Shown: positions 1,605 through 56,919 of the stretch, piece after piece
Layout of the letters: each line of letters begins with the position of its first letter
Position numbering within the stretch: the stretch's first letter is position 1
Assembly: GCF_020595125.1 (NCBI RefSeq)
Contig: NZ_JACNMS010000005.1
Location: 62,001 to 126,000 of the forward strand
Direction of reading: 5' to 3'
Source of the DNA: Jeotgalibacillus aurantiacus
GTDB lineage: Bacteria > Bacillota > Bacilli > Bacillales > Jeotgalibacillaceae
Length of the DNA stretch: 64,000 bases
Position numbers and translations under genes: made by a program
The notes under the pieces: generated by a model
What the model was told of the DNA's origin: nothing
Databases searched by the model: none
Seen by the model: the letters and a program-made list of their open reading frames with translations, nothing else

Positions 1605-1751
1605 GTTTGGTTCAATACTCCCGATCCTGAGAAACTCGCAAAAAATCCTGTGAACCAGGCTGAAAATCTTTTGAACGAACAGCAACATTCTGCGAACCTC
1701 GTGTATAATGTTTTGAACGAGGGGCGAAATTCTGCGAAACTTTCATTCGCA
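1605..1751. repeat. 21-bp degenerate tandem array A1
   Basis: Six consecutive 21-bp units start at 1626, 1647, 1668, 1689, 1710 and 1731; a weaker unit precedes them at 1605. Each unit opens with a variant of YYTGYGAAC and most end in AAT, while the middle is variable. The period holds without a single indel. The array fills the gap between the MarR gene and the palindrome at 1550-1601. Because 21 is a multiple of three, long frames stay open on both strands, which produces spurious heptad-repeat peptides. Confidence 0.8.
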
Positions 1752-1765
1752 CTCAAAATATTTTG

Positions 1766-2197
1766 TTATTTCACACCCTTCATCGCTTCATTAAATTTAC
1801 TCAGCAGTTTCCCGAACTGTTCGCGTTCTTCGTCGGTCCAGTCGTTTAAGAGGTTTGCGACTTTTTCGCGGCGGATGTTCCGGTATTGCTTCATTTCTGT
1901 TTCGCCGCTTTGTGTCAACTCAAAGAAGTAGGAGCGTCTGTCTGAAGGGGACTGAATTTTTTTAACGTACCCTTTCTGCTCGAGGGAGGCTGCCTGTCTG
2001 CTGACGGTTGAGATGTCGAGCTGAAGTTCCTCAGCGAGATCTTTTACGCCGGCTGGCCCTTTTGTTGAGATTTGATGCAGCAACAGATAAGCCGAGCGCA
2101 CGAGGCTTTCGTCTTTTCTGTTCAGAGCAATTGTTGTGATTCTCCTTGCCAATATCGCCATTTCTAGCTCAATGGCACGAAGGGATTCTTCTTTCAT
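1766..2197 (-). CDS. MarR-family transcriptional regulator
   Basis: This 143-aa protein has the MarR winged-helix layout: an N-terminal dimerisation helix, a helix-turn-helix around residues 55-85 (L-A-E-E-L-Q-L-D-I-S-T-V-S-R-Q), the wing with S-D-R-R-S-Y, and a C-terminal helix. It is divergent from an EmrB/QacA-type exporter gene 113 bp away, and the gap holds two copies of a 13-bp palindrome, so the simple model is a local repressor of itself and the exporter, relieved by a small ligand. The start ATG at 2197 follows an AAAGGCGG site. The ligand cannot be told from sequence. Confidence 0.9.
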   Translation of the reverse strand: MKEESLRAIELEMAILARRITTIALNRKDESLVRSAYLLLHQISTKGPAGVKDLAEELQLDISTVSRQAASLEQKGYVKKIQSPSDRRSYFFELTQSGETEMKQYRNIRREKVANLLNDWTDEEREQFGKLLSKFNEAMKGVK

Positions 2198-2239
2198 ATT
2201 TTAAACCGCCTTTTCCTGAACGTGTTTTTGAAGCTGAAT

Positions 2240-2277
2240 ACTTGTATGATACAAGCATATAGTTGTATCATACAAGT
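2240..2277. promoter_or_regulatory. Paired palindromic operator for the MarR regulator
   Basis: Two copies of TTGTATSATACAA, at 2242-2254 and 2263-2275, are each self-complementary apart from the central base, and together form a 15-bp-arm inverted repeat (2240-2254 with 2263-2277). Their centres are 21 bp apart, two helical turns, so two MarR dimers could bind the same face. The position midway between the divergent marR-type and exporter genes supports an operator role. Confidence 0.8.
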
Positions 2278-2310
2278 AATTGATCAAAAAATAAAGAAAG
2301 AAGGATTAAT

Positions 2311-3726
2311 ATGGCTTATGCACAGGAAAGGCCAAAGGATACGACTTCCTTTAATAAAGTTCCGCTCCTGATCGTGTTGATTTCAGGAGCTTTTGCCGCC
2401 ATTTTAAATCAGACGCTCTTGGCTACAGCGTTACCGGTTATCATGGCTGACCTTAATTTACAGGCGAGTACGGCTCAGTGGCTGCAGTCTGTATTTATGC
2501 TGGTAAACGGGATTATGATTCCGATTACGGCTTTTTTGATAGAGAGATTTACAACGAGAAGACTATTTTTAACTGCGATGGGCTTATTCGGGCTCGGTAC
2601 ACTTATATGTGCGATCGCACCCGGCTTTGGCTTTCTGATGGTCGGACGTATTTTACAGGCATCAGGTGCGGGTATCATCATGCCATTAATGCAGACCATC
2701 CTGTTTTTAATTTATCCGGTTGAAAAGCGCGGGGCTGCGATGGGGATGTTTGGACTTGTGATTGCCTTTGCACCGGCGATTGGTCCTACGTTATCCGGCT
2801 GGATGGTGGATCAATTCCCTTGGAGAAGCCTGTTTTATATTATTCTGCCGGTCATTATCATTGATATCATTGTGGCGTATTTTATTTTGAGAAATGTAAC
2901 GAAGCAAACCTTTCCAAAAGTGGACCCGCTTTCGATTGCGCTGTCTACACTTGGATTCGGTGGACTATTATATGGATTCAGTACAGCAGGAAACACTGGC
3001 TGGTTAAGCTGGCAGGTGATTGGATCGCTCGTAGTTGGAACTGTATCACTAACCTGGTTTATCTACAGACAAAATCATCTTGAAAAGCCGATGCTTGAAT
3101 TCAGGGTATTTAAAAACCCGATATTCACGCTGACAACAGCTATTGGCATGATTGTGTTTATTGCGATGATTGGCGGAGCGGTTATTCTGCCGCTTCTCAT
3201 GCAGAATATGCTTGGATTCAGCGCACTTGAATCCGGATTGATGCTGCTTCCAGGGGCACTATTAATGGGAGCCATGAGTCCAATAGCAGGAAAACTGTTT
3301 GATAAATTCGGAGCGAGATGGCTAGCGATTACTGGGATGTCGATTCTGACCATTACGACATTCATGTTCACAAACCTATCAGCTGAGACTACATTTATGT
3401 ATTTAGCTGTTGTGAATATGTTCCGTATGTTTGGTTTATCTATGGTCATGATGCCAGTCACCACTGCGGGTCTGAACCAGCTGCCTAACCACCTGATTCC
3501 ACACGGTACAGCGATGAATAATACGATGCGACAGGTGGCAGGTGCTGTAGGTACTGCCTTGTTAGTCACTGTGATGACCATGACCCAGATTCCTGATGAA
3601 GGCGTCAGCGGCATGATAAGAGGCGTCAACATTTCCTTCGTCGTAGCAGGTATCACAGCTGTCATCGGACTCGTTCTCGCCTTTTTTGTGAAAACGAAAA
3701 AGCAGACGGATGAGGCTGCTGCGTAG
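2311..3726 (+). CDS. MFS multidrug exporter, DHA2 (EmrB/QacA) family
   Basis: The 471-aa protein is strongly hydrophobic with about 14 membrane segments, the number expected for drug:H+ antiporters of the DHA2 family. Visible signatures are the motif-A-like loop R-F-T-T-R-R after the second segment and G-P-T-L-S-G-W near residue 153 (motif C region typical of exporters). Closest remembered relatives are Bacillus LmrB/Mdr-type efflux pumps. ATG at 2311 has an AGAAGGA site. The linked MarR gene and operator indicate induction by a substrate; the substrate is unknown. Confidence 0.9.
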   Translation: MAYAQERPKDTTSFNKVPLLIVLISGAFAAILNQTLLATALPVIMADLNLQASTAQWLQSVFMLVNGIMIPITAFLIERFTTRRLFLTAMGLFGLGTLICAIAPGFGFLMVGRILQASGAGIIMPLMQTILFLIYPVEKRGAAMGMFGLVIAFAPAIGPTLSGWMVDQFPWRSLFYIILPVIIIDIIVAYFILRNVTKQTFPKVDPLSIALSTLGFGGLLYGFSTAGNTGWLSWQVIGSLVVGTVSLTWFIYRQNHLEKPMLEFRVFKNPIFTLTTAIGMIVFIAMIGGAVILPLLMQNMLGFSALESGLMLLPGALLMGAMSPIAGKLFDKFGARWLAITGMSILTITTFMFTNLSAETTFMYLAVVNMFRMFGLSMVMMPVTTAGLNQLPNHLIPHGTAMNNTMRQVAGAVGTALLVTVMTMTQIPDEGVSGMIRGVNISFVVAGITAVIGLVLAFFVKTKKQTDEAAA

Positions 3727-3771
3727 AAAGCGAAGGGATGAACTGGAACGATTTGGAGATTCAGCAACCTG

Positions 3772-3809
3772 AAAAACCGTAACCCTTATCATAAGAGTTA
3801 CGGTTTTTT
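3772..3809. terminator. Bidirectional intrinsic terminator
   Basis: The stem AAAAACCGTAAC pairs with GTTACGGTTTTTT, giving a T-run on both strands. It separates the exporter from the convergent DUF3817 gene. Confidence 0.85.
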
Positions 3810-3812
3810 CTA

Positions 3813-4106
3813 TCAGCTGAACCTCTTCTCAATTCTCCGATCCAGCACGAAATTCCCAAACGGTATAAACGCGACAGCAACAGCGCTGAACAGCCACATG
3901 AAATGCCACCTGATTTTAAAAGTCGTATAAAGCGCAAGCATAACATAAACAACAAATAGGAAACCGTGAATAGATCCTACGAGTGTAACAGCTTCCGGAA
4001 TGCCGGCCATATATTTCAATGGCATGGCAATAAATAATAAAATGAGCAGGGATCCGCCTTCAACCAATCCCATCATACGGAATCGTCCGATATGAGTTTT
4101 CATCAT
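3813..4106 (-). CDS. DUF3817 small membrane protein (YdzA-like)
   Basis: With the start chosen here the protein has 97 residues and three hydrophobic segments (about residues 7-30, 37-60 and 66-85), with G-R-F-R near the N-terminus, G-S-I-H-G in the middle and F-V-L-D at the end, as in DUF3817 proteins. The function of the family is not established. The ATG at 4106 is preceded by GGAGGGA at the right distance, whereas the upstream in-frame ATG at 4121 has no site. It is a single gene ending at a shared bidirectional terminator. Confidence 0.75.
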   Translation of the reverse strand: MMKTHIGRFRMMGLVEGGSLLILLFIAMPLKYMAGIPEAVTLVGSIHGFLFVVYVMLALYTTFKIRWHFMWLFSAVAVAFIPFGNFVLDRRIEKRFS

Positions 4107-4226
4107 GATTTTTCCCTCCATGTCTATTAGGCATTATAAAAGATTCAGCTAAATAATGTGTGAACAATTCGTGTTGATTGTGCTGGTTGAAAAAAATAGT
4201 TAATTGTTTACATTTTTAGTGTGAGG

Positions 4227-4243
4227 GTAATGTCTACCATTAC
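4227..4243. promoter_or_regulatory. Small palindrome upstream of the YqcI/YcgG gene
   Basis: GTAATG and CATTAC form a 6-bp inverted repeat with a 5-nt spacer, 22 bp before the start codon at 4266. It is placed where an operator would be, but no regulator can be named and such a short palindrome could be chance. Confidence 0.25.
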
Positions 4244-4265
4244 ATATTTTTGGAGGCGGATTTAA

Positions 4266-5012
4266 ATGGTGAATAAAAGTTCCGGGTTATTGACGAAAGA
4301 GGATATGCAGGATCATGAAAGGCTGCCTGATTGGCTCGTGCAGGAGTATAAAACGTTTGAGAAGACTGTGCTTGATCCAACGTTTCCATGCTATTTCGGA
4401 ATGAAAGGCCAGCGAAAAGGGGAGCTTCGCTATGCCTACATATCGCAAAAAGACTGGTCTAATCTTCCTCAGGCGGTCGGTGAATTTCTCGCACTTTTTA
4501 AATCAGAAACAAAAATAAAGCACGGTTTGTTTTTATTTGTGGAACCGTTTGAAGTGGAGCAGGAGCTTGATCATTACCGCGCTCAATTTTGGGAGATTCT
4601 TCAGTATCTTCATGAGCAGGATGAGAAAGCCTGGCCTGAAGAACATCCGAGAGACCCTGATCATTTTCTTTGGGATTTTCATTTTGATGGAGAACCGATT
4701 TTCGTTTTTGGGAATGCACCAGCCTATAAGCAGCGGAAAACAAGGAATCTTGGCAATGCGATGGTGCTTGGATTTCAGCCCCGTGCGATTTTTCAAGGCC
4801 TCGAGGGAACGGAAAAGGGAGGAATCATGTCCCGGGAAAAGGTAAGGGAACGCGTTGAAAAGTGGGATCAGCTGCCAAAGCACCCGGATATCAGTCATTA
4901 CGGGGATCCGGATCATCATGAATGGAAACAATCCTTTATTGGCGATGACATTAATCCTGTTACGGGTAAATGCCCATTTCAGCATAAAGAGCTGGTGAAA
5001 CAAAACGGATAA
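4266..5012 (+). CDS. YqcI/YcgG family protein (GntA-like heme enzyme family)
   Basis: The 248-aa protein shows the family's hallmark regions: F-P-C-Y-F-G near residue 40, a central W-D-F-H-F-D-G-E-P-I-F-V-F-G-N-A block, the N-A-M-V-L-G-F-Q-P-R strand and the C-terminal H-P-D-I-S-H-Y-G-D-P block followed by a C-P-F motif. Members of this family include a heme-dependent N-hydroxylase (GntA); the chemistry of the Bacillus members is not known to me. It lies 19 bp upstream of the NAD(P)H-hydrate dehydratase gene and is probably cotranscribed, although no functional link is obvious. ATG has a TGGAGGCG site. Confidence 0.8.
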   Translation: MVNKSSGLLTKEDMQDHERLPDWLVQEYKTFEKTVLDPTFPCYFGMKGQRKGELRYAYISQKDWSNLPQAVGEFLALFKSETKIKHGLFLFVEPFEVEQELDHYRAQFWEILQYLHEQDEKAWPEEHPRDPDHFLWDFHFDGEPIFVFGNAPAYKQRKTRNLGNAMVLGFQPRAIFQGLEGTEKGGIMSREKVRERVEKWDQLPKHPDISHYGDPDHHEWKQSFIGDDINPVTGKCPFQHKELVKQNG

Positions 5013-5031
5013 ATAAAAGGAGAAGAGACAT

Positions 5032-5853
5032 ATGTGGACAGCAGATGATGTAAAGGAGACACTTCCTGTTCGTTTGGCAGATGCACATAAAGGAACATTT
5101 GGCACGGCATTGCTCGCGGTCGGCAGTCCGTTTATGCCGGGCGCTGCGATTCTAGCCGGTATGGCATGCCTGCGCAGTGGTGCGGGTAAGCTCGAAATGG
5201 GGGCGGATGAATCCGTTTTTCCTCATGTATCTGCTCATTTACAGGAAGCAACGTATGTGCCGGAATTCAGTGAGAAGATAATGAGAGGGGACCTTGATCT
5301 CTCTACTTATCGTGTGTTGACATGCGGATCCGGGAGAGAACCGGGTCCTGAGACAGAAAAAATCATTGATCGTTTTCTACGGACGGATCTACCTGTTGTC
5401 CTGGATGCAGGAGCGCTTTCAAAAAGAACATACGCAGTCAGGAACGCACCCGTTATCCTGACTCCTCATCCGGGGGAGTTTGAAAGGATTTCGGGAATAG
5501 AGCTGGAAGGTTCCAAAGAAGCACGAATTCAGGCTGCTGAAGAAATGGCACAAACATTTGGTGTAACCATTGTGCTAAAAGGAGAAGAAACTGTCATTTC
5601 TTTTCCGGATGGAGAGACGAGAATCAACCCGACCGGTAACAGCGCACTTGCCAAAGGTGGAACAGGTGATGTGCTGACAGGCATGATTTCAGGCATGCTG
5701 TGCTGTCATGAAAACTGGAAGCATGCTGTTTTAAATGCAGTCTATTTGCATGGAGCCTGCGCAGATGAATGGATCAAAACAAAATCGTCCCACACCATGC
5801 TGGCAAGTGAAATCACAGAGCTGCTGCCGGAAGTGTGGAAAGCGCATGAGTGA
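5032..5853 (+). CDS. nnrD: ADP-dependent NAD(P)H-hydrate dehydratase
   Basis: The 273-aa ribokinase-fold enzyme converts the damaged (hydrated) form of NADH or NADPH back to the normal cofactor using ADP. Key motifs are H-K-G-T-F-G-T near residue 22, G-A-G-K-L for the nucleotide, L-T-P-H-P-G-E-F near residue 142, V-L-K-G-E and the catalytic N-P-T-G-N-S-A-L-A-K-G-G-T-G-D-V-L-T-G block near residue 203. The length equals the single-domain Bacillus YxkO type, lacking the NAXE epimerase domain that is fused in E. coli. The start follows AAAAGGAG. Confidence 0.9.
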   Translation: MWTADDVKETLPVRLADAHKGTFGTALLAVGSPFMPGAAILAGMACLRSGAGKLEMGADESVFPHVSAHLQEATYVPEFSEKIMRGDLDLSTYRVLTCGSGREPGPETEKIIDRFLRTDLPVVLDAGALSKRTYAVRNAPVILTPHPGEFERISGIELEGSKEARIQAAEEMAQTFGVTIVLKGEETVISFPDGETRINPTGNSALAKGGTGDVLTGMISGMLCCHENWKHAVLNAVYLHGACADEWIKTKSSHTMLASEITELLPEVWKAHE

Positions 5854-6203
5854 ATGAAATTCAGTACTTCATAACGTGTTGACTTTAAATGGTTAACCTA
5901 TCCTATTGTTAATTATTTGTTCTGTCTATGAAAACAATACTGTGACATTTCAATGGTCTTAGTTAAATAGATCAGCATTTTATAACAAAGAGGCGTATTC
6001 CCCCGGAGACTCCTGCTACAGAAAAGCGAAAGGTTTCCAGTCCCTCCCCATTGCTGCTGAACAAAGGAAAGGGGGATATGCTCCGATATCTAAGAAATAT
6101 GAGACTCATGACTCACACTTCCTCTTTACATTTACCTAAGTCCCTACTACTATTAAATCATCACTCTGTAATATAAACGGGCTGATATGAGAGGGTGGCA
6201 AAG
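5854..6203. other. Intergenic stretch with a decayed palindrome-ended element
   Basis: No gene is visible. From about 5988 to 6079 there is a decayed copy of the palindrome-ended element family: GGAGACTCCTGCTACAGAAA resembles the internal GTAGACTCCTGCGGCAG of the copy at 12226-12333, and GCGTATTCCCCC near 5991 is partly complementary to GGGGGATATGC near 6071. The rest is A/T-rich leader for the diguanylate cyclase gene. Confidence 0.45.
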
Positions 6204-7853
6204 GTGAGTGTGGAAAAATTACTTTTTAGAGCTGTGATGAAAGGCATAAAGGAAATGGTTTTCATCGTCAAGGCAGAGCCTGACGGTGAGTTTACTTATG
6301 CTTTTTTGAATGAAGAGGCGAAGATGCGTTCAGGCTTGTCGGATGAGGATCTTGGAAAACCGATCCAGTGTATTCAGCCTGATTTATCTTCCTTTTTATA
6401 TAGCCAGTATCGTAAGGCTGCGGAAACAAAGGAAGATGTCGTCTATAAAGATTCCTATACAGCTCTATCTGGAGAAACCTATTATTCTAAAACCCGGCTT
6501 TCCCCTTTGATGGATGAAAAGGGAGAGTGCACTCATATTACTGCGCTCGTAAATGATATTACAGAATCAACCTGGGCGGAGCTTGACGCAGAGGAGTCAA
6601 GAGAACGGGCTCTTGAAAGCCGTGAAAGATTCCGCTCGCTGTTTGATCATAATCTGGACGCTATTTTTTACTTGAATCTCGATGGAATTACAATTAGCGG
6701 CAATCGTGCTGCTGGAGCGTATATTGGATGGGAATCAGAGCCGGAGGAAATTCATTTTCGGGAATGGTTCAAGGAGAAGGATTTAACGGAGGTTCATCAC
6801 GCTTTCCTAAAAGCTAAAACAGGTGAAGCCTCGTCTTTTCGTACAAAGGTATATATGAATGGGAAAAAAATAGACGGACTCTCTATTTTTGTTCCTGTTA
6901 TGATTCATCATGAAGTCACAGGTATTTACTGGATACTCAAAGATATTTCAACAGAAATGGATGCTATCAAACGCTTCAGGGACAGTGAAAAGAAGCTGAG
7001 AATTATTGCAGAGAATGCACAGGACCTGATCACGCTTGTTGATCATAAGGGTACGATTATTTATGCATCTCCATCCTACCGGCAGGTGCTAGGTTATCAT
7101 GAGAGGGAATATGAAGGGCAATTGTTTTCTCATCGGGTAGAAGAGGAATATCTACCTGAACTGGAAGCTTCTTTCATAGAATCTATCCAGCAGGGCACCC
7201 CCTGGAAGCTACAATTGCGCCAGCAGCACCATGATAAAGAGTGGATGTGGACGGAACTCCATGGAACGCCTGTTTTTGATGACCAGGATCAATTTAATTA
7301 TATGGTGGTTGTTTCTAGGGACATTACGTTTAATAAAAAGCAGGAATCACGTCTTGAATACTTTGCTTATCATGATTCTTTAACAGGCTTACCAAACCGC
7401 CGGCTTCTCCAAAAAACAATGGAAGAGGAGCAGCAGTCTGGGCGGCAGCCATTTTCAGTTTTAATGCTGGATATTGATCATTTTAAAACGATTAACGATG
7501 AACTGGGACATGATGCAGGAGATGCAGTCATTGAGGAATTTGGTCGGCGGCTTAAGATGAGCACGAGAAGCTCTGATCTTGTTGCAAGATTAGGCGGTGA
7601 CGAATTTATCGTGTTACTGCGCGGGGTTGAAAATGAAGATAAGCTTTCAAAAGTGGCGGATAAAATGTTGTCTGCGATTCGCGATCCTTTTCACTTTAAT
7701 GGCATGGAAATGAGTGTGACAACGAGTATAGGAATGACTGTTGTTGAAAACACTTCCTGTTCACCGGCTGAAATTTTAAAAGCTGCTGATAAAGCCCTTT
7801 ATCAGGCGAAGGCCAGGGGACGCAACACTTTTTCAATCCTGTCCCTGAACTGA
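6204..7853 (+). CDS. Diguanylate cyclase with three PAS domains
   Basis: About 549 aa. Three PAS/PAC sensor units occupy roughly residues 10-125, 135-255 and 265-385 and are followed by a GGDEF domain (385-549), which makes cyclic di-GMP from two GTP. The active-site loop is an intact G-G-D-E-F near residue 464, and R-S-S-D sits exactly five residues before it, matching the product-inhibition I-site. No EAL domain or membrane segment is seen, so sensing is cytoplasmic. I prefer GTG at 6204, eight bases after AGAGGG, over GTG at 6195, which overlaps that site. The ligand of the PAS domains is unknown. Confidence 0.9.
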   Translation: MSVEKLLFRAVMKGIKEMVFIVKAEPDGEFTYAFLNEEAKMRSGLSDEDLGKPIQCIQPDLSSFLYSQYRKAAETKEDVVYKDSYTALSGETYYSKTRLSPLMDEKGECTHITALVNDITESTWAELDAEESRERALESRERFRSLFDHNLDAIFYLNLDGITISGNRAAGAYIGWESEPEEIHFREWFKEKDLTEVHHAFLKAKTGEASSFRTKVYMNGKKIDGLSIFVPVMIHHEVTGIYWILKDISTEMDAIKRFRDSEKKLRIIAENAQDLITLVDHKGTIIYASPSYRQVLGYHEREYEGQLFSHRVEEEYLPELEASFIESIQQGTPWKLQLRQQHHDKEWMWTELHGTPVFDDQDQFNYMVVVSRDITFNKKQESRLEYFAYHDSLTGLPNRRLLQKTMEEEQQSGRQPFSVLMLDIDHFKTINDELGHDAGDAVIEEFGRRLKMSTRSSDLVARLGGDEFIVLLRGVENEDKLSKVADKMLSAIRDPFHFNGMEMSVTTSIGMTVVENTSCSPAEILKAADKALYQAKARGRNTFSILSLN

Positions 7854-7938: not shown

Positions 7939-8655
7939 ATGGGACGTAAGTGGAACAATATTAAGGAAAAGAAAGCAGCAAAAGACGCGAATACAAGTCA
8001 GGTTTACAATAAATTCGCGCGTGAAATATATGTAACAGCCAAGCAGGGAGAGCCGGATCCGGAAGCCAATACAGCTTTGCGTATGGTACTGGATCGTGCT
8101 AAAACATACAATGTGCCAAAAGCCATCATCGAGCGCGCAATTGAAAAAGCAAAAGGCGGCGGTGAAGAAAGCTATGACAGCCTCCGATATGAAGGTTTTG
8201 GCCCGGCAGGATCGATGATTATTGTCGATGCGCTCACTAATAACGTAAACCGCACTGCTTCTGAAGTGCGTGCCGCATTTGGTAAAAATGGCGGGAATAT
8301 GGGTGTCAGCGGATCTGTGTCTTATATGTTTGATTCTACTGCGGTATTTGGCGTGGAAGGAAAAACTGCTGATGAGATACTGGAGCTGTTAATGGAAAAA
8401 GATGTGGATGCCCGTGACATTCTTGAAGAAGATGATGCAGTCATTATTTATGCAGAACCTGACCAGTATAACGCGGTTCAACAGGCTTTAAAGGATAGCG
8501 GCATTACGGAATTTACTGTAGCCGAGCTGACAATGCTTGCTCAAAATGATGTGTCAGTATCTGAAGAAGATCAGGCACAGATTGAGAAGCTGATCGGTGC
8601 ACTCGAAGATCTTGAGGATGTACAGCAGGTGTATCACAACGTGGAATTGAATTAA
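7939..8655 (+). CDS. yeeI: YebC/TACO1-family protein (YeeI type)
   Basis: The 238-aa protein begins M-G-R-K-W-N-N-I and carries the conserved E-G-F-G-P-x-G block near residue 90 and N-R-T-A-S-E-V-R near residue 106. Family members have been described as transcription regulators and, more recently, as ribosome-associated factors that help translate difficult proline-rich stretches. The N-terminus matches the YeeI/YeeN subgroup rather than the YrbC/YebC subgroup. ATG at 7939 lies after AAAGAGAGTG. It is monocistronic with its own terminator. Confidence 0.9.
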
Positions 8656-8663
8656 ATTTGAGG

Positions 8664-8692: not shown

Positions 8693-8735
8693 GTTTGAAA
8701 AGATCTTTTTAGCTGGACTGGGCCTTTTTACACTA

Positions 8736-8861
8736 AACTGACGAAGTCACAGGCGGAACTCACAAAAGTAAGGTTTAAGCTCACGAATTCAACTCCTAAC
8801 CTCACAACCCCGCCCCCTGAACTCACGAAAACATCCGCCCACCTCACAAACTCAAAATCAC
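8736..8861. repeat. 21-bp degenerate tandem array A2
   Basis: Six units of exactly 21 bp begin at 8736, 8757, 8778, 8799, 8820 and 8841. Five open with AMCTCACRA; the first has AACTGACGAA. The remaining 11-12 bp of each unit are unrelated. The array lies between the terminators of two convergent genes, so neither message should include it if termination is efficient. Confidence 0.85.
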
Positions 8862-8865: not shown

Positions 8866-8896
8866 AAAAGACACCGGTCACCCCCGGTGTCTTTTT
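8866..8896. terminator. Terminator of the Ena-like gene (bidirectional)
   Basis: AAAAGACACCGG pairs with CCGGTGTCTTTTT around a short loop. It directly abuts array A2. Confidence 0.85.
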
Positions 8897-8899: not shown

Positions 8900-9286
8900 T
8901 TAAGCCTCGTACAATACCTGCATTTTGAAAGAACCTGTGTAATTCTGGCCGAATGAGTTGACGGTTACGCGCACGACTTCATCATGGATGAATGTCAGGG
9001 AAGAACCAGCCTGTACAGGGATGGTTTCCTGGCTGTTGCGACGGATAATCGTGATGTTCAGTCCGTTGTTGCTGAAGTTTTCAATTGTAGCAGCCAATGT
9101 GACGCGAAGGTCATTCGGCTCTACGTCAAAGATGATATTGTTTGGTGTGTTCGGTCCGCCTGCAAATGGTGCACAGTTTTCAAACAGCAGTTTCTCAGGC
9201 TTTTCCTTCTTTGGACGCTTAGGGCAGTCACAGTCACACTGACCAATCGTTCCTAAAGGGCGCTTGTAGTGATCTTTACATGTCAT
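8900..9286 (-). CDS. Possible endospore-appendage (Ena/DUF3992-like) protein, 128 aa
   Basis: The N-terminal third is Lys/Cys-rich with a C-D-C-D-C run near residues 18-22 and K-R-P-K-K-E-K; the rest is predicted beta-sandwich ending G-S-F-K-M-Q-V-L-Y. The order (Cys-bearing N-terminal arm, then a sandwich with G-S-S-L-T-F, V-x-R-V-T-V and a closing strand) resembles the Ena subunits that build Bacillus spore appendages, where N-terminal cysteines crosslink stacked subunits. The similarity is by eye and weak. ATG follows AGGAGGTGA. A sigma-K-like promoter lies just upstream, which supports a late mother-cell product. Confidence 0.45.
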   Translation of the reverse strand: MTCKDHYKRPLGTIGQCDCDCPKRPKKEKPEKLLFENCAPFAGGPNTPNNIIFDVEPNDLRVTLAATIENFSNNGLNITIIRRNSQETIPVQAGSSLTFIHDEVVRVTVNSFGQNYTGSFKMQVLYEA

Positions 9287-31023: not shown

Positions 31024-31172
31024 ATCTCTCAGAATACATGAAAACCGCTTAATCCTGAAAAGCAGGAGCGGGGGAACCGGCGTGCCTTGCGCACATGGGG
31101 TGAAGTCTAATCAGACAGGGAACTCTTAATCCCTAACCCGTCAGCTAACCTCGCAGGCGATTAAGAGAACTG
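31024..31172 (+). ncRNA. c-di-AMP (ydaO/yuaA) riboswitch
   Basis: The leader of ktrA contains the full conserved core of this class: CCGCTTAATCCTG, CGGGGGAACCGG, GGGGTGAAGTC, AGGGAACTCTTAATCCC and AACCCGTCAGCTAACCTCG, closed by CTCTC near the start with TTAAGAG at the end. An intrinsic terminator follows at 31191-31221. In the known system c-di-AMP binding favours termination, so high c-di-AMP should switch off K+ uptake. Confidence 0.95.
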
Positions 31173-31190
31173 ACTTGTGTGAAAGCAGCC

Positions 31191-34720: not shown

Positions 34721-34830
34721 TTCTTATCAAGAGAGGTGGAGGGACAAGGCCCTGCGAAACCTCAGCAACCATCACACAAGTGAAAAGGTGCTAAATCCAT
34801 CCCGTATTTTTACGGGGAAGATAAGGAGAG
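34721..34830 (+). ncRNA. SAM-I (S-box) riboswitch
   Basis: The sequence has the conserved order CTTATCAAGAGAGGTGGAGGGA, GGCCCTGCGAAACCTCAGCAACC, AAGGTGCTAAATCC and GATAAGGAGAG, with the P1 helix formed by CTTATC and GATAAG. It precedes a terminator at 34850-34885 and the yitJ-metH operon. S-adenosylmethionine binding favours termination, so the operon is on when SAM is scarce. Confidence 0.96.
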
Positions 34831-42218: not shown

Positions 42219-42342
42219 GCCTCATTCACCCCTTTTTCTGCCACTTAAAGACGTGTCATAGTATAGCATAAAACTTTACATTGTGACCTTCATTTACATG
42301 ACTTTTATCACGAAGTGCGATATACTGATCGCAGATGCAATT

Positions 42343-42430
42343 TCCACAAGGGGAGCCCTTTCGGCTGAGAGTGAACAATCTGTTCAGACCCTTCGAACCT
42401 GTAAGTTAATGCTTACGCAGGAATGTGGAT
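42343..42430 (+). ncRNA. TPP (THI-box) riboswitch
   Basis: The conserved elements CCACAAGGGGAGCCC, GGCTGAGAGTGAAC, GACCCTTCGAACCTG and GTAAGTTAATGCTTACGCAGGAATGTGG are all present, with TTCCACA and TGTGGA closing the structure. It precedes a terminator and thiT. Thiamine pyrophosphate binding would favour termination and reduce thiamine uptake. Confidence 0.96.
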
Positions 42431-42442
42431 GGAAACGGACCT

Positions 42443-45368: not shown

Positions 45369-45566
45369 ATTGTATCGTTATGGAGAGTTTATGAATCGAA
45401 TGGGAATTTTATTGTACTGTTTGAACGTTTAAATGTATTGATTCAAAAGTTAATTGTATTGTTCTGCGTTGAAGGTGTGGTTTTTGTTATGTTCATAATC
45501 ATAATTGTCCTTTTTCAAACTTTATATGTACTGTTTCAAAAAAGAATTGTACTGTTCACGCAACGG
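45369..45566. repeat. 21-bp degenerate tandem array A3
   Basis: Units of 21 bp start at 45369, 45390, 45411, 45432, 45453, then after one 30-bp unit (45474-45503) at 45504, 45525 and 45546. Most begin with a variant of ATTGTAYTGTTT. On the plus strand the frame stays open and would give heptads such as I-V-L-F-E-R-L and I-V-L-F-Q-T-L; no ribosome binding site supports translation. The array fills the gap between the TspO-like start and the recQ terminator. Confidence 0.8.
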
Positions 45567-49777: not shown

Positions 49778-50015
49778 GAAGGCATGTTTTGACAAAAGGT
49801 GCGTGTGGGGCAGTTTGATTGAATTCAATTTAGAAATGAAGGAATCGTGCTGTCGTAGTGATGGAATCATGAGAGTCAATGAAGGGAAAATGAAGGCTTG
49901 AGGACGTAGTGAGGGAATTATATTTTCAAACGAAGGAATCATTTTTTAGAAAGAAGGAATAAAAATCTGATTCGATTGAAAAATTTTCCTTAAAGAAGGA
50001 ATACCGTCGGGCTCC
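49778..50015. repeat. 21-bp degenerate tandem array A4
   Basis: Anchored on variants of GAAGGAATC (and GATTGAA), units start at 49817, 49838, 49860, 49881, 49911, 49932, 49953, 49974 and 49995. The steps are 21, 22, 21, 30, 21, 21, 21 and 21 bp. The single 30-bp step echoes the 30-bp unit in array A3. On the minus strand most units read I-P-S-L/F-type heptads. No gene is present; the array separates two plus-strand genes. Confidence 0.75.
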
Positions 50016-50728: not shown

Positions 50729-50767
50729 AAGCTGGAACACTCTTGAGGGAGCTGTTCCGGCTTTTTT
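50729..50767 (+). terminator. Intrinsic terminator of the acetyltransferase gene
   Basis: AAGCTGGAACA pairs with TGTTCCGGCTT (one mismatch), then TTTT. Confidence 0.85.
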
Positions 50768-50785
50768 GATGTGCGTTTTTAAGGA

Positions 50786-50954
50786 GAGTCGTTAAATGAA
50801 TGCAAAGAGTGGTTAAATAACCTGATAGAGTGGTTGAATACTCCGATAGAGTGGTTAAATAACCCGAAAGAGTGGTCGAATAACCCAAAAGAGTGGTCGA
50901 ATCCATCCCGAACAGCCACTTAATCACTTCAAAGAGTTCTCAAATGGCTTACAG
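50786..50954. repeat. 21-bp degenerate tandem array A5
   Basis: GAGTGGT or a close variant starts at 50786, 50807, 50828, 50849, 50870 and 50891, exactly 21 bp apart; one unit is decayed and a last GAGTTCT stands at 50934. Units continue with TAAATAACCCGAAA-like sequence. The minus strand is open and would give heptads S-T-T-L-S-G-Y. The consensus is nearly the same as that of array A6 six kilobases away. Confidence 0.85.
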
Positions 50955-51057
50955 CCTACTACGCCTCAGGTCCTACTCCAAAATCAAGCTCCGGCTCCTG
51001 TCGGGGTTTTTTGCTGTGCTCTAAACTAAGGTTACAAAGAAAAAAGGAGGAAACAAC

Positions 51058-51396: not shown

Positions 51397-51417
51397 ACAT
51401 AAAAAGGAGACGATCAT

Positions 51418-52023
51418 ATGAATCACGTACTATCAAAAATAGCAGAAGTCATCAAACAGGATTTTAAAGATGCGAAGTGGAAGAAAGAGATGTCGAATCC
51501 TCTCACAGCTTTGTCAAAGGAGATCAAGGATTGTGAGGGTGCAGTGAAGCGTGCACAACAGCTGACAGATCGCCAGAAGCTCCTTAAAAAGGAATTTGAA
51601 AAGGAATTCCGCGAAGCAAAATCAATGGCTGAAAAACGCAAAGAGCATGTTAAGCTGGCGGAAGAAGCAGGGAAAGAGGAGCTTGCAGCAGCGGCATTAA
51701 GAGAATACACCTATTACAGCGGCCGCACAGAGCGCCTGGAGATCACGATTCGTGAAGCGGAGGCCCAGCTGAAGGATCTTGAGCATCAGCAGGAACAGAT
51801 CACATTTAAGCTGAAAGACCTTCAGTTGAAGCGACTTGAGTATATGGCAAAGGAAAATGCCGTAAAGGGTGAAAAACAGGCGTCATTTATGCTGAATCCG
51901 GAGCAGGTAACGGATGAGGATCGCCGTTTTATGCAGATTGATCAGTACTTAAAGTCCGAAGAAAAGAAAAAAGAAGTGCTGACGATTGATGAACAAATTG
52001 AAGAGTTGAAACACGAAAATTGA
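51418..52023 (+). CDS. liaH: PspA/IM30-family protein, LiaH-like
   Basis: The 201-aa protein is almost entirely coiled coil (about 25-180), with no membrane segment, and is followed by liaF-liaS-liaR. It differs from the PspA at 15051-15716 by starting M-N-H-V-L-S-K-I and lacking the D-P-x-K-M-L-D-Q motif in clear form. LiaH forms large rings that shield the membrane after bacitracin or daptomycin damage. RBS AAAGGAG. Confidence 0.85.
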   Translation: MNHVLSKIAEVIKQDFKDAKWKKEMSNPLTALSKEIKDCEGAVKRAQQLTDRQKLLKKEFEKEFREAKSMAEKRKEHVKLAEEAGKEELAAAALREYTYYSGRTERLEITIREAEAQLKDLEHQQEQITFKLKDLQLKRLEYMAKENAVKGEKQASFMLNPEQVTDEDRRFMQIDQYLKSEEKKKEVLTIDEQIEELKHEN

Positions 52024-52130
52024 TGAATTCGGGAGAAAGGGGAGACCCTTCCTCCCGAATTTGGGGTTCCGGTAAACAGAATGAAAGGCTAAAATAAGGA
52101 AGCAGGATGATCAACAAGGGGGTGGGCAGA

Positions 52131-52862
52131 ATGAAATGGCTAAAAGAAATGTCCTTATCAAACTGGGTAACTGCCTGTCTGGTACTCGTATTCATTGAAA
52201 TTATTTTATTTAACAGCGGGATGATCTTTTCGTTTGCGGTAGCAGGTGCATTTATTTACTTTGGAAAACGCCGCTGGGACCGGCTGTATGGGAAGATCCT
52301 GTTAGGTGTTGGAGCGCTTTCTTTATTAACGGCTGTTTTGTCGATGGTCACATTGAGAATTCTCGCAGTCGTGCTGATTGTTTATTTGATTATGAAATAT
52401 ACAGAGTCTAAGAAAGACCCTGTTACGTATAGAGCGAAAATGGAAAGTAAGTTCAAGGAAGATAAAGAAAGACTTCTTTTATCTAAAAAACCTTTTTTCC
52501 TGAATAAATGGGTGGGATCTCATTCTACACCTGATCACTCATTTGAATGGGAAGATATTCATCTGCAAAACGGAATCGGTGATGTACTCATTGATTTGAG
52601 TAATACAGTGTTACCGGACCGGGAAGTATTTATTTCGATGAGAAATCTGGCCGGGAACATTACGATTCTTGTCCCTTATGAACTGGATATCTCTATTCAA
52701 CATGCTGCTGTTGCCGGGGAAGCTTCGATTTTTAAGAAGCATTCCTCCCGTCTGTGGAATGAAAATCTTGTATATGAAACAGAGCATTACCGGTCCGCTT
52801 CTCAGAAAGTAACGATTTTCACATCAGTGCTTGTCGGGGATATCGAGGTGAAGCGCGTATGA
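52131..52862 (+). CDS. liaF: LiaF, inhibitor of the LiaSR system
   Basis: About 243 aa from ATG at 52131, seven bases after AAGGGGGTG; an earlier ATG at 52107 has no site. The N-terminal part has three to four membrane segments and the C-terminal 120 residues form a beta-helix-like domain (I-G-D-V-L-I-D-L, G-N-I-T-I-L-V-P-Y, S-V-L-V-G-D-I-E-V). LiaF keeps LiaS inactive until the envelope is damaged. It overlaps the LiaS gene by 4 nt. Confidence 0.88.
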   Translation: MKWLKEMSLSNWVTACLVLVFIEIILFNSGMIFSFAVAGAFIYFGKRRWDRLYGKILLGVGALSLLTAVLSMVTLRILAVVLIVYLIMKYTESKKDPVTYRAKMESKFKEDKERLLLSKKPFFLNKWVGSHSTPDHSFEWEDIHLQNGIGDVLIDLSNTVLPDREVFISMRNLAGNITILVPYELDISIQHAAVAGEASIFKKHSSRLWNENLVYETEHYRSASQKVTIFTSVLVGDIEVKRV

Positions 52863-53884
52863 TGGCGAAAAATACGTTTCAGGCGGTGGGGCTGAGTGTC
52901 CTGACAGTATTGCTGACTTTTGGCGTCTACCTTTTAATGTTTCCACCCGAACAGTGGGGAAGCCTTTGGCAGGAGACGATCCTGGATATTCCGATCGTTC
53001 TGTTTCTTGTCCTGCAGCTGCTGCTTGTGTCCATGATCTGGGGACTGATTCAGGGGCATGGTTATAAAAGACAGGTGATGATGGTGCAGCGTCAGCTTGA
53101 TGATCTGCTTTTAGGACGTGCAACATCAGAGGGAAGCCTGCCCAAAACGGCGGAGCTTTCCAAGCTGTCAGAAAAAGCATCAGAGCTGCAGACGTTATGG
53201 ACAGAACAGGTGCTGACGAGTCAGAAGCTTGCAAGTGAGAAGGTTGAACAGCAGGAGCAGAAGATTCAGGAGATGGTCTCTCAGGAACGGCAGCGGCTGG
53301 CACGTGAGCTGCACGATTCAGTCAGCCAGCAGCTGTTTGCCGCATCGATGCTGATGTCAGCGATTAATGAGGAGGAAAGCGCGCGGGAAAATCGTCAGCT
53401 GCAAATGGTGGAGAAGATGATTCAGCAGTCTCAGATTGAGATGCGTGCGCTGCTTTTACATTTAAGACCGGCTGCTTTAAAAGGTAAAACATTGGCGGAA
53501 GGTATTGAAGAACTGCTGACTGAGCTTCAGCTGAAGGTTCCATTGAAGCTGACCTGGAAGGCTGAGCCGCTTGAACTTGAGAGAAGTGTGGAGGATCATC
53601 TGTTCCGTATTTTACAGGAATCGATTTCAAATACATTACGTCATGCTGAGGCGGAAATTCTCAGCGTTTTATGCATTTTACGGGATGATTATGTCATTCT
53701 GCGAATTACGGACGACGGTAAAGGTTTCACGATTTCAGAGGATAAAGCAGGCTCATATGGTCTTGCCAGCATGCGTGAACGCGCTGCTGAAATTGGCGGG
53801 AAGTTAAAAATCGTCTCTCTTCCTGATCAGGGAACGCGTCTTGAAATCAAGGTACCTTTTAAAAGAAGGGAGGAAGCGGAATGA
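52859..53884 (+). CDS. liaS: LiaS sensor histidine kinase
   Basis: The 341-aa kinase has two membrane segments (about 8-28 and 42-62) with a very short outside loop, as in intramembrane-sensing kinases, then a coiled linker, the HisKA_3 phosphoacceptor [10 protein letters not shown] near residue 147 and an ATPase domain with N-T-L-R-H-A, D-D-G-K-G and G-S-Y-G-L. It phosphorylates LiaR on envelope stress. It overlaps both neighbours by 4 nt. Confidence 0.92.
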
Positions 53885-54513
53885 TACGGGTATTATTCGT
53901 AGACGATCACGAAATGGTCCGGATTGGCGTGGGATCTTATTTAGCGGCTCAGCATGATATTGAAGTGGTGGGCGAATGTGACGACGGAGAACCGGCTGTG
54001 AAAATGGCATTAGAGCTGAAGCCGGATATTATTTTAATGGACCTTGTCATGAAAAAGATGGATGGCATCGAGGCGACCTCACAAATCATCAAAAAGTGGC
54101 CGGAAGCAAAAATCATCATTGTCACAAGCTTTTTAGACGATGATAAAGTTTATCCTGCACTTGAAGCAGGAGCGGTCAGTTACTTACTTAAAACATCGAA
54201 AGCAAAAGACATAGCAGACGCGATCCGGAAAACGCACAACGGAGAAACGGTTTTAGAGCCTGAGGTAACCGGAAAAGTCATGCAGCGTATGAGAGGTGGA
54301 GTACCTAAATTGCTGCATCAGGATCTGACGGACCGTGAAAAAGAAATTTTACTGCTCGTTGCAGAAGGAAAAACAAATCAGGAGATTGCTGATGAGTTAT
54401 ACATTGCCTTGAAAACCGTCAAAACCCATGTCAGTAACATTCTTGGGAAGCTTGAAGTTCAGGATCGAACACAGGCTGTTATATATGCATTTAAGCATGA
54501 TTTGGTAAAATAG
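53881..54513 (+). CDS. liaR: LiaR response regulator
   Basis: The 210-aa NarL/FixJ-type regulator has a receiver domain (1-120; acidic pocket D-D-H near residue 8, phosphorylated Asp in I-L-M-D-L near residue 54, Lys in L-K-T-S) and a LuxR-type helix-turn-helix (about 145-205, L-T-D-R-E-K-E-I-L and V-K-T-H-V-S-N-I-L). It activates the lia operon after phosphorylation by LiaS. I could not find a confident LiaR box upstream of the operon. Confidence 0.92.
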
Positions 54514-54584
54514 GTAAATGATGATGTTAAGGACTTTTGTTTCTGGGTAAACAAATACAAACGCTCTTGAAAGGAGTCCTATGC

Positions 54585-55193
54585 ATGCATTCCTTATTGG
54601 AAAATCAGGCGAAAGACTGCTGCTGGTTGAACGAACCGCCGGACTACGCGCTTGAAGATAAAGAATTAATCGTCAAAACAAAAGAAAAAACAGATTTCTG
54701 GAGAAAAACGCATTACGGCTTTGATCGCATGGATGGACATGTCTTTTATAAGGAAATCATAGGTGCATTTGAAACAGAAGCCGTATTTACAATGAAGGAT
54801 CCGAAAAGCCGGTATGATCAGGCGGGCCTTTTTATTATGGTATCAGATGACTGCTGGCTGAAAGCGTCACTTGAATATATTCCGGAAAAGCATTCTTTCC
54901 TGGGAGCCGTAGTGACTAATAATGGATTTTCCGACTGGTCATCGTGTAATGTGCCGACACCGGAGAACGGGATTAAGCTCGCGTTCAAAATTTCCCGTGA
55001 AGGTGGCAATTACCGGATCTGGTCTAAGCCTGCAGAAGGTGACCATGAATACCAGCAGTTAAGAATTGCCCGTCTCCATGAGGATGACCATAATGGCAAA
55101 GTAAAACTCGGCTTATACGCATGCAGTCCATCACCAGGCGGAGGTTTCACCACAGTTTTTCACTCCTGGACCGTTCAATTAGAAGTGAAGTAA
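54585..55193 (+). CDS. DUF1349 protein (YesU-like lectin fold)
   Basis: About 202 aa from ATG at 54585, eight bases after AAAGGAG. The sequence is beta-rich with T-D-F-W-R-K-T-H-Y-G-F near residue 39, D-Q-A-G-L-F-I-M near 80, W-L-K-A-S-L-E-Y and S-x-V-V-T-N-N-G-F-S-D-W-S, the pattern of DUF1349 concanavalin-like proteins. It lacks a signal peptide. A carbohydrate-related role is presumed from the fold only. Confidence 0.8.
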   Translation: MHSLLENQAKDCCWLNEPPDYALEDKELIVKTKEKTDFWRKTHYGFDRMDGHVFYKEIIGAFETEAVFTMKDPKSRYDQAGLFIMVSDDCWLKASLEYIPEKHSFLGAVVTNNGFSDWSSCNVPTPENGIKLAFKISREGGNYRIWSKPAEGDHEYQQLRIARLHEDDHNGKVKLGLYACSPSPGGGFTTVFHSWTVQLEVK

Positions 55194-55205
55194 AGGAATG
55201 ATTGG

Positions 55206-55685
55206 ATGATTACAATAGAAGATTGGTTTTCCTATCATAAATGGGGCACGCAGAAACAGCTTGATCATTTGAAAACATTACCTGAAGAGATTTACACAAG
55301 AGAAATCCAAAGTGTATTTCCATCCATAAAGGAAGTGTTCGACCACGTCTATGTAGTGGATTATTTGTGGCTGGAGCGGATCAAAGGAGTAGAAAGACCG
55401 GAGGCTCCAGCAACATCACTCAGAACTGTCGAGGAAGCATCAGCCGCTTTTAAGGAGCTCCACCAGCAATACGATCAGCTACTGACAAAGATTGACCCTG
55501 TTACGGTTCACTCCTTTGTTACGATGAAAGGAATACCGATGACAAATACGATAGAGGAAATGGTGTACACAGTCGTCAATCACGGCTCCTACCATAGAGG
55601 AAACGTGACAGCCATGCATCGTCAGCTTGGATATAGCGGGGTTGTATATGATTATATTTATTATTTGAATGAAAAAAGAAGCTGA
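55206..55685 (+). CDS. DinB-family protein
   Basis: The 159-aa four-helix protein has the probable metal ligands of the family: His near residue 48 (F-D-H-V) and two histidines in N-H-G-S-Y-H-R-G-N near 127-131. DinB/YfiT-like proteins include thiol-dependent transferases; this one cannot be assigned a substrate. It follows the DUF1349 gene by 12 bp and is probably cotranscribed. Confidence 0.85.
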   Translation: MITIEDWFSYHKWGTQKQLDHLKTLPEEIYTREIQSVFPSIKEVFDHVYVVDYLWLERIKGVERPEAPATSLRTVEEASAAFKELHQQYDQLLTKIDPVTVHSFVTMKGIPMTNTIEEMVYTVVNHGSYHRGNVTAMHRQLGYSGVVYDYIYYLNEKRS

Positions 55686-55707
55686 AATCAGATCAGCTTC
55701 TTTTTTT
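55676..55707. terminator. Bidirectional terminator after the DinB gene
   Basis: AAGAAGCTGA pairs with TCAGCTTCTT, followed by TTTTT, between convergent genes. Confidence 0.85.
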
Positions 55708-55709
55708 CA

Positions 55710-56276
55710 TTAAGCTTTTACATAACCCTCAGACACCAGATCAAGACGGCCTGTTTCAGGATCGATAACAAGTCCGTGGACAGGAACTTTGGCATCCATC
55801 AGCGGATGATTACGAACAAGCTCTGCTGTATGCTTCACGCTTTCAGATACGTCATCAAAACCTTTCAGCCACTCGTGTAAATTGATGCCTGAATATCCTA
55901 ATGTATCAATTGTTTCATCAGAAATACCACGGTTCTTCATTTTAGAAATCATGGATTCACTGTTTACCGCACCCATACCGCAATCGTAGTGGCCGATAAT
56001 CAGTACTTCATCTGCCTGAAGCTCATAAACTGCAACAAGAAGGCTTCGCATGACGCTTCCAAACGGGTGAGTAATCACGGCTCCGGCATTGCGGACCATT
56101 TTGACGTCACCGTTTTTAAGGTTCATCGATTTAGGTAAAAGCTCTAGAAGACGTGTATCCATGCATGTCAGGATGACAAGCTTTTTGTCAGGGAGCTTTG
56201 TCGTGGCGTATGTTTCATATTCTTTTTCTTTAACGAATGTTTCGTTATAGGTAAGCAGTTCGGATAATAGTGTCAT
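55710..56276 (-). CDS. Beta-class carbonic anhydrase
   Basis: The 188-aa enzyme has the zinc site Cys38 and Asp40-x-Arg42 in T-C-M-D-T-R-L, His96 and Cys99 in G-H-Y-D-C-G. Beta-carbonic anhydrases interconvert CO2 and bicarbonate; this short form matches the Bacillus YtiB/YvdA type. ATG follows AAGGAGGAT. It is a single gene. Confidence 0.88.
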   Translation of the reverse strand: MTLLSELLTYNETFVKEKEYETYATTKLPDKKLVILTCMDTRLLELLPKSMNLKNGDVKMVRNAGAVITHPFGSVMRSLLVAVYELQADEVLIIGHYDCGMGAVNSESMISKMKNRGISDETIDTLGYSGINLHEWLKGFDDVSESVKHTAELVRNHPLMDAKVPVHGLVIDPETGRLDLVSEGYVKA

Positions 56277-56370
56277 GTAAATCCTCCTTGTGTAGATGTG
56301 GATTGAGTCGTTGCAGTTGATCTTCCTTCTTTATTGTAAGTAAAGATTTGGGTTCTGTCGAATGTATTTG

Positions 56371-56475
56371 GAGAACCGGAGCGGATTCTTTCTTCCGTGG
56401 CCGGATGTTGAATCCGTCTTTGCTTCAGCTGTTTTTACCTGACCGTTTCCTCAATAGGAGTTGACAGGAGAACAA
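56371..56475. repeat. Decayed palindrome-ended element
   Basis: TTCCGTGGCCGGATGTTGAA, a CTTTGCTTCAGC segment, ACCTGACCGTTTCC and CAATAGGAGTTGAC follow the core order of the intact copies, but the ends no longer pair. Confidence 0.5.
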
Positions 56476-56488
56476 GGATTTAAAAAGC

Positions 56489-56728
56489 GGGCAGAAGGCA
56501 TCCTTCGCTTTCCTTTGTCTAGCTGCGGCGACTAGCCCCTCGAGGTCATAAGTCAAAGATGAACGAGGGCAAAGATCAGCCCTCTTTTCATCTTCGCCTT
56601 ATGCTTGTCGGGGCTGGACGAGTCGCCTCCGCTTTTCTAAGGCCGCGCGGTGAGCCAGCTATTGCTGCGCAATACGCTGTCTCACCTGTCGCTTCACTGC
56701 CGCAGGAGTCTACGGATGCCTTCTGCCC
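56489..56728. repeat. Palindrome-ended element, long form (variant 2)
   Basis: The ends GGGCAGAAGGCATCC (56489-56503) and complement (56714-56728) are perfect 15-bp inverted repeats. The inserted module (56525-56632) folds into one long hairpin by nested pairs GCGACT/AGTCGC, AGCCCC/GGGGCT, CATAAG/CTTATG, AGATGAA/TTCATCT and GAGGGC/GCCCTC. The shared core follows. The module differs in sequence from that of the 27574 copy but occupies the same place. Confidence 0.85.
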
Positions 56729-56793
56729 TGGGTTTGTGCAGTAGATTTCGGTTTTTTTGGAAAGATAGTTGGTTAAGTTCAAGAACTGACCCA

Positions 56794-56919
56794 GATTCTC
56801 AGTAGTTTTTGAGAGAGTGGTTATATAGATGGAGAAGGTTGTTAAAAAGATAGAAAGAGTTGTCTAATAATCAGAATAAGTTGTTTGATAATCAGAAAGA
56901 GTTGTCAAATAAGTTTCAG
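56794..56919. repeat. 21-bp degenerate tandem array A6
   Basis: GAGTGGT, AGGTTGT, GAGTTGT, AAGTTGT and GAGTTGT start at 56815, 56836, 56857, 56878 and 56899, each exactly 21 bp apart; a weak unit may precede at 56794. Units continue with CTAATAATCAGAA-like sequence, nearly the array A5 consensus. It lies between a long palindrome-ended element and the msrAB terminator. Confidence 0.85.

Follow-up and report, generated by a model that had tools for sequence, protein, structure and literature searches.

What are the rows of short repeat units, set 21 bp apart, that occupy six gaps between genes in a 64-kb stretch of the Jeotgalibacillus aurantiacus genome, and what keeps their period? The stretch (C5:62001-126000 of the 3.5-Mb genome, G000; "the window" throughout) was the subject of an earlier note, which described the six arrays and offered phased protein-binding sites, slippage minisatellites and templated addition during repair as explanations. 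We followed the arrays through the genome, a sister species (G004), further members of the genus and other Bacillales, with L-numbers denoting loci. Sequence comparison indicates that the conserved unit letters and the 21-bp phase are kept by selection and that slippage alone is insufficient. We propose, with a probability of about one half, that each array is a polar row of phased sites for a candidate sequence-specific DNA-binding protein.

Gaps were defined as intergenic intervals of at least 110 bp between genes called with a simple coding-potential caller, and an array was called at 36 or more matches of 63 at lag 21 or 42. Thirty gaps in the window qualify, and the six that reach the threshold are exactly those of the earlier note. 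Each gap was shuffled 500 times with its local composition kept; in five gaps no shuffle scored as high as the observed sequence, and for the array at 45369 one did. All six lie between called genes, as had been claimed, which rules out coding heptad repeats for the window arrays; that explanation is accepted for two lag-21/42 matches in L153, which fall within a called gene and were left out of the class. Tandem Repeats Finder (TRF, score 30) detects only 50785-50902, 56814-56912 and, weakly, 49914-49960. Neighbouring units are often less alike than alternate ones, lag 42 beating lag 21 at 1605, 8736 and 49778; at 1626..1754 lag 42 is strongest because TTCGCAGAAT and TTCAAAACAT units alternate.

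The signal extends beyond the window. In 864 kb of G000, 36 gaps score at lag 21, 32 at lag 42, 18 at lag 63 and 5 at lag 84, against 0 or 1 gap for each of 14 other lags; array density in this count is biased, because 15 of its 40 stretches of 20 kb were picked for motif matches to one family (F1, below). When genes are left unmasked, lag 21 and its double come out on top in the window, in C1:1-100000 of G000 (a stretch chosen irrespective of its arrays), across the genus and in 80 Bacillales loci; the second class in those loci is lag 52-53. Shuffling each stretch once produced no array at any lag in the window, G000 or the genus, and seven arrays at assorted lags, none of them 21, in the 80 Bacillales loci. 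Among other Bacillales, 15 loci carry 21-bp arrays only, and five (L068, L080, L083, L100, L103) carry arrays of 51-53 bp, none together with a 21-bp array.

The earlier view that each array has a private consensus did not survive, since the families of all six window arrays recur at other G000 loci; the exception it made for the last pair was correct, 50786 and 56794 both belonging to F1 (Table 1). A catalogue of the window plus 400 kb holds 47 lag-21/42 matches, including the two in L153. In the sampled G000 DNA we count 77 chains of at least three units (31 of F1, 14 of F2 with the unit AAAGTGACCAAG, 13 of F3, five of F4 with the unit TTCGCAAGATTTTGAT, 14 of F5), and a further family, F6, occurs at 45369 and five other loci. 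F6 arrays tend to form two short sub-arrays out of 21-bp phase (45369-45566; L156 583-759; L249 11799-11934). The units are direct repeats with an asymmetric consensus, and the spacings between them in F1-F5 chains are 21 bp in 248 cases, 42 bp in 17 and one off in 16. Chain length is narrow: mostly four to six units, only three in 10 of the 77, more than eight in none, and five or six in 24 of the 31 F1 chains. The ends are ordered as well. Position 7 of F1 is T in 25/28 first, 43/93 inner and 6/28 last units, and position 12 is C in 12/28 last as against 15/93 inner units (P = 0.008). Arrays and their linkers can be duplicated jointly, because at L168 (3719-4198) three F3 arrays recur as whole blocks of about 198 bp; F2 arrays on contig C22 of G004 look similarly duplicated.

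Among the Jeotgalibacillus genomes searched, F1 and F2 stand out only in G000 and G004. A two-unit F1 pattern has 142 matches in G000 and 144 in G004 (reversed controls 7 and 3), and 0-6 in ten other Jeotgalibacillus genomes (controls 0-5); F2 has 62 and 105 matches in G000 and G004 (controls 1 and 0) and none in the five congeners searched. Other congeners have other units, for example TTCTAAGAAC and GTGACC types in G007 and TATCGATCA in G005. Not every family is species-specific, because F5-type units also occur in G007. F1 and F2 are alike by eye (RAGTGryCAA), and similar words are seen in some other genera.

Evidence for constraint comes from the sister species, which is 92.4% identical to G000 over 397 kb aligned. 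Alignment with G004 was possible for 27 of the 77 F1-F5 arrays, the other 50 lacking aligned G004 DNA. The sister species has every one of the 27; no ortholog pair came from F4. Eighteen pairs with flank identity of at least 80% were used and nine dropped. Columns with at least 90% uniformity across the G000 units, a definition independent of G004, differ between the species at 12/667 positions, against 133/1264 in the other columns (P = 3e-14), and they change more slowly than the flanks (334/5362; P = 2e-7). Change is unevenly spread over the 21 unit positions in F1 (P = 0.006) and F3 (P = 0.02), and not significantly so in F2 (P = 0.28, 30 changes); positions were counted from the first unit, so the phase is slightly blurred by six pairs with lengths other than multiples of 21.

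Length is constrained in a similar manner. In the flanks, 24 indels of 1-3 bp accompany 334 substitutions, which predicts 10.4 for the 145 substitutions in the arrays, where two 1-bp gaps were found (P = 0.002). The remaining length events within arrays are of 21 bp (four), 42, 126 and 41 bp, plus long events of 56 and 276 bp, both at array ends; at L242 an F1 pair combines a 41-bp insertion with two 1-bp gaps, a net difference of 41. The earlier statement that the period hardly ever slips needs a correction at 45369, where two sub-arrays are separated by a phase break. In the window, the G004 orthologs of 50786 and 56794 are each shorter by exactly two units (42 bp), those of 8736 and 49778 align without gaps (241/280 and 380/390 identical), and a lag-21 array stands at the matching place for 1605 (L051 3836-3940, blast alignment of the area).

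Among more distant congeners the contents of the same gaps vary. The arrays at 8736 and 45369 are found only in G004 among six alignable species each, and that at 49778 only in G004 of eleven species. In the gap of 50786, G007 and G009 carry ATTCCTTC (F5-type) arrays recognized by eye, with lag scores of 34 and 33, below the threshold of 36, and G006, G008, G011 and G005 have none; around 1605, TTCTAAGAAC arrays occur in G006 and G007 immediately ahead of the position matching window 1777 in the alignment. Whole genomes also differ: in 12 sampled stretches each, arrays occupy 0/87 gaps in G003 and 1/89 in G010, as compared with 18/176 in G007 and 8/62 in the unselected part of G000 outside the terminus (pooled P = 7e-6), a contrast that may in part reflect where the G003 and G010 stretches lie relative to the terminus. 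Two enzyme families were searched as candidate makers, Y1 transposase and reverse transcriptase, and neither tracks this split: the transposase turned up in G003 and G010, which are array-poor, but not in the array-rich G007, and reverse transcriptase was not found in G004. Templated addition during repair, one of the earlier options, is unsupported. A single mobile element as the sole cause is likewise unsupported, given the species-dependent gap contents, the sharing of all alignable arrays with G004 and the distribution of these enzymes.

Arrays prefer the ends of genes. In G000 outside the terminus zone (defined below), they occupy 14/33 convergent, 20/113 tandem and 3/41 divergent gaps of at least 110 bp (convergent versus divergent P = 0.0006, versus tandem P = 0.005), and in G007 7/21, 9/118 and 2/37, respectively. 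Many F1 arrays follow what looks like a transcription terminator: of 30 arrays, 15 have a hairpin with a T-run on the array strand no more than 110 bp upstream, as against 70/876 control windows. The same search found one hairpin upstream on the other strand, five downstream on the same strand and seven downstream on the other (n = 30). Eight of the 15 hairpin-bearing arrays have 10 or 11 bp between the end of the stem and the first unit, and TTTT is present at -14 to -4 in 15/28 F1 arrays, compared with 9.8% of control windows. A box, CAT.AAGWGC, upstream of the hairpin has 15 pattern matches, seven of them followed by an array and eight not; the seven show hairpin and T-run by eye. The heads differ between loci.

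Arrays are also scarce around the replication terminus. In C2:210-610k of G000, where both GC skew and gene strand switch near 330-350k, the pattern expected at a terminus, they occupy 1/141 gaps, against 8/65 in the window plus C1:1-100k (P = 0.0005). None of about 27 F1 loci with 0-1 mismatch, among the matches listed, lies in C2:1-800k (P about 0.0009 if loci are independent), and F2 has one locus there, at C2:544k. In G007, on a 3.5-Mb contig whose start looks like dnaA, 22 stretches of 20 kb were sampled; the six between 1.41 and 2.31 Mb have arrays in 0/41 gaps as against 18/135 in the rest (P = 0.008), with zone limits set after the data had been seen and six of the 16 other stretches also without arrays. 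The depletion may be indirect, because the terminus zone is relatively poor in convergent gaps.

Arrays of this kind have been reported before. Subirana and Messeguer (2021; PMC8161180) describe, in the available part of their text, tandem repeats of Bacillus with a constant size of 20-21 or 52 nt, variable sequence and no known function, several species-specific families occurring per genome, and suggest nucleoid proteins or small RNA. The arrays studied here share with that description the unit length of 20-21, the variable sequence, the several families per genome, a mostly noncoding and species-specific occurrence and a short conserved word per unit; regular length, several families, a minimum of four repeats and noncoding position, by which the 20-21-nt class is recognized, were all found. 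Unlike those repeats, as far as that text describes them, ours are hosted by Jeotgalibacillus and are more degenerate, TRF at score 30 catching three of the six window arrays. The class is thus already published for Bacillus, and the earlier remark that no function had been described is still right, but the class itself was described in 2021; in the open-licence literature we found no paper that deals with what the 21-nt class does or where it is placed. What is added here is the constraint, the placement in gaps, the hairpin heads, the scarcity at the terminus and the differences among congeners; the evidence for selection, the gap classes, the hairpin heads, the ordering of array ends and the depletion at the terminus go beyond that description in its available part.

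The arrays can be compared with other known systems. Clustered regularly interspaced short palindromic repeats (CRISPR) consist of identical repeats and spacers of similar length beside cas genes, and the whole 21-bp period is shorter than the usual CRISPR repeat. Repetitive extragenic palindromic (REP) elements and bacterial interspersed mosaic elements (BIME) of Escherichia coli are likewise short intergenic repeat units, for which the sources available in part propose roles in supercoiling and termination. They are, however, palindromes in alternating orientation linked to the RAYT (Y1) transposase, whereas the arrays are asymmetric direct repeats in 21-bp phase and this transposase does not follow them.

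Constrained, phased and asymmetric sites suggest something that reads DNA from one face, and the preference for gene ends suggests a block, an insulator or a supercoil trap there. In the proposal made at the outset, one protein, or its polymer, would cover one face of the DNA over about 84-126 bp, across mostly four to six sites two helical turns apart; it would read the conserved letters of the unit, could, where transcription units end, serve as a roadblock, an insulator or a trap for supercoils, and would change together with the unit consensus between lineages. Of the three options offered earlier, phased protein-binding sites fits best. Reb1 and TTF-I, roadblock terminators of eukaryotes with asymmetric protein sites behind a T-run, offer a comparison of how such a system might work and only that; they use a release element, whereas bacterial intrinsic hairpins stand in its place here, and the protein is a candidate. 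According to the available part of PMC10310618, Reb1 blocks RNA polymerase II. A more specific version is possible though rather unlikely: that the arrays are sites of a lineage-restricted DNA-coating candidate protein with a fast-changing recognition word, which would mark transcription-unit ends, often just behind a terminator, and be kept off the terminus, as a Reb1/TTF-I-like roadblock with a Noc-like distribution.

Several observations weigh against phased protein sites. No recognition core common to all families was found. If the whole motif core is compared with G004, degenerate letters included, the contrast shrinks (64/1176 versus 81/755, P = 3e-5), with the core changing no more slowly than the flanks (P = 0.35); without degenerate letters it is 50/1090 versus 95/841 (P = 4e-8; versus flanks P = 0.04), and a further core list (32/901 versus 113/1030), picked after the counts were known, is not relied on. 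In other genera the 3' preference is weak (divergent 2/196, others 19/521, P = 0.08), and convergent gaps (3/107) do not exceed tandem ones (16/414). Upstream hairpins are found in 4/14 F2 arrays (three at 9-10 bp), with a same-strand hairpin downstream in 5/14, and are rare in F3 (2/13), F4 (1/5) and F5 (0/14). Finally, A+T (adenine plus thymine) inside units shows a 10.5-bp periodicity in excess of column shuffles in G000 (mean rank 0.22; 63 arrays from families that are not independent) and other genera (0.28; 27 arrays), but this is not clear in G007 (0.43; 15 arrays), non-array DNA being at 0.46.

This periodicity, together with a length of about 12 helical turns per array and the preference for 3' and convergent positions, would also be expected if the arrays were wrapping sites for DNA gyrase, or another topoisomerase, relieving positive supercoils at transcription-unit ends as at BIME-2 of E. 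coli. The gyrase motif of that species has, in the available part of PMC6379681, a phased 10-bp variation in G/C, with cleavage enriched downstream of highly transcribed operons and in BIME-2. Gyrase would not readily account for sharp asymmetric cores that differ between families and species, nor for the weak phasing in G007. Two congeners are nearly without arrays in the sampled DNA though gyrase is essential, and we judge this explanation unlikely.

Neutral minisatellites, produced by replication slippage or unequal exchange with a period set by the mutation process, share with the arrays a variation in unit number, as in the variable-number tandem repeats. Whole units have been gained or lost relative to the sister species (42 bp at 50786 and 56794; 21, 42 and 126 bp elsewhere), and whole-array blocks have been locally duplicated. 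A minisatellite, however, should change evenly over its unit, and what was observed is the contrast of uniform and other columns given above, along with scarce 1-bp indels, a narrow unit number and a preference for convergent and tandem gaps. Slippage as the whole story is contradicted, because columns are uneven, small indels scarce and first, inner and last units ordered; we hold a purely neutral origin to be quite unlikely, whole-unit gain and loss notwithstanding.

A similarly low probability attaches to sites for chromosome segregation or the timing of division, like the terminus-scarce sites of Noc or SlmA, to which the depletion near the terminus in two species with different families would point. 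The palindrome bound by Noc has a consensus of about ATTTCCCGGGAAAT. In Bacillus subtilis these sites are absent from the terminus region, so that Noc sites and the arrays are both chromosome-wide and scarce near the terminus, as far as the available part of PMC4331003 goes. Noc-like palindromes with 0-1 mismatch number 21 in G000, one of them on the terminus contig C2; examples are C1:948152 and C2:793367, and an exact one sits between F2 and F1 arrays. These are single palindromes that exist separately from the arrays, whose consensus sequences differ, and the arrays as Noc sites are ruled out by this difference in sequence. Noc is present in 12/12 genomes with its own palindrome type, several G007 stretches away from the terminus lack arrays, and the shortage of convergent gaps near the terminus could produce the depletion indirectly.

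That the arrays are elements of small RNA or RNA structure, a role proposed for the 52-nt class, is very unlikely. The 52-nt repeats of B. coagulans are transcribed, according to the available parts of PMC8161180 and PMC8625621, and F1, F4 and F3 in sense orientation fold slightly more stably than shuffles (mean z about -0.9 to -1.5). No excess stability was found in F2, F5 and F3-antisense (mean z -0.34 to 0.11), so that folding is not a trait common to the families; no Rfam family matched the window arrays at gathering score, and half of the F1 arrays are preceded on their strand by a terminator-like hairpin. Least probable is a selfish dispersed element (hairpin head plus array) copying into gene ends, which could explain why F1 and F2 abound in G000 and G004 and stay at control level in the other congeners searched, why seven head-box matches with hairpin and T-run are each followed by an array and why one gap may carry different families or none across species, but no fresh insertion was seen, because all 27 alignable G000 arrays are present in G004, the heads vary by locus and neither candidate enzyme follows the arrays.

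Table 1. Arrays and adjoining hairpins in the window, with positions counted from its first nucleotide
Feature	Position	Strand	Setting	Score
F4-like array (TTCGCAAGATTTTGAT with mismatches), units TTCGCAGAAT / TTCAAAACAT alternating	1626..1754	-	convergent gap	lag-42 43/63, 0/500 shuffles
F3 array, TTCGTGAGGTTA type	8725..8861	-		lag-42 36/63, 0/500 shuffles
Terminator-like hairpin GACACCGG...CCGGTGTC, then minus-strand T-run	8870..8891	-	directly precedes F3 array; by eye	
F6 array ATTGTAYTGTTY, two sub-arrays and phase break	45369..45566	+	tandem gap	lag-21 37/63, 1/500 shuffles
F5 array GAAGGAATAA	49778..50015	+	tandem gap	lag-42 39/63, 0/500 shuffles
Terminator-like hairpin GCTGGAACA...TGTTCCGGC and T-run	50731..50767	+	upstream of F1 array; by eye	
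F1 array GAGTGGTYRAATAA	50786..50954	+	tandem gap	lag-21 53/63, 0/500 shuffles; TRF score 128
F1 array	56794..56919	+	tandem gap	lag-21 45/63, 0/500 shuffles; TRF score 87

The F3 array is flanked by a yebC-like gene (7939-8655) and a convergent gene (8900-9286); the YebC-like protein is identical over 238 residues in Jeotgalibacillus sp. R-1-5s-1, the nearest named genome (locus L051). The second F1 array faces the end of an msrAB-like gene (56970-58124). A GC-rich interspersed repeat (with pieces such as CTGCCGCAGGAGTCTACGGATGC and GTCGCCTCCGCTTTTC) adjoins several F1 arrays, in the window at 56621-56730, and the same repeat lies upstream of arrays in L161, L162, L163, L164 and L167. The window further contains riboswitches for cyclic di-AMP (31036-31174), S-adenosylmethionine (34721-34827) and thiamine pyrophosphate (42339-42440), and a gene for a DHA2-family efflux transporter (2311-3726), above the cut-off of the EmrB subfamily model.

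The Bacillus repeats of constant length and variable sequence have been a published puzzle since 2021, with functions only suggested. For the 21-nt repeats this puzzle is now testable, because letters and phase are constrained, arrays are biased toward gene ends, their ends are ordered, they are scarce at the terminus and congeners differ in them. If the reading as sites of a DNA-coating protein is true, it would give the 20-21-nt repeats of the Bacillales a function.

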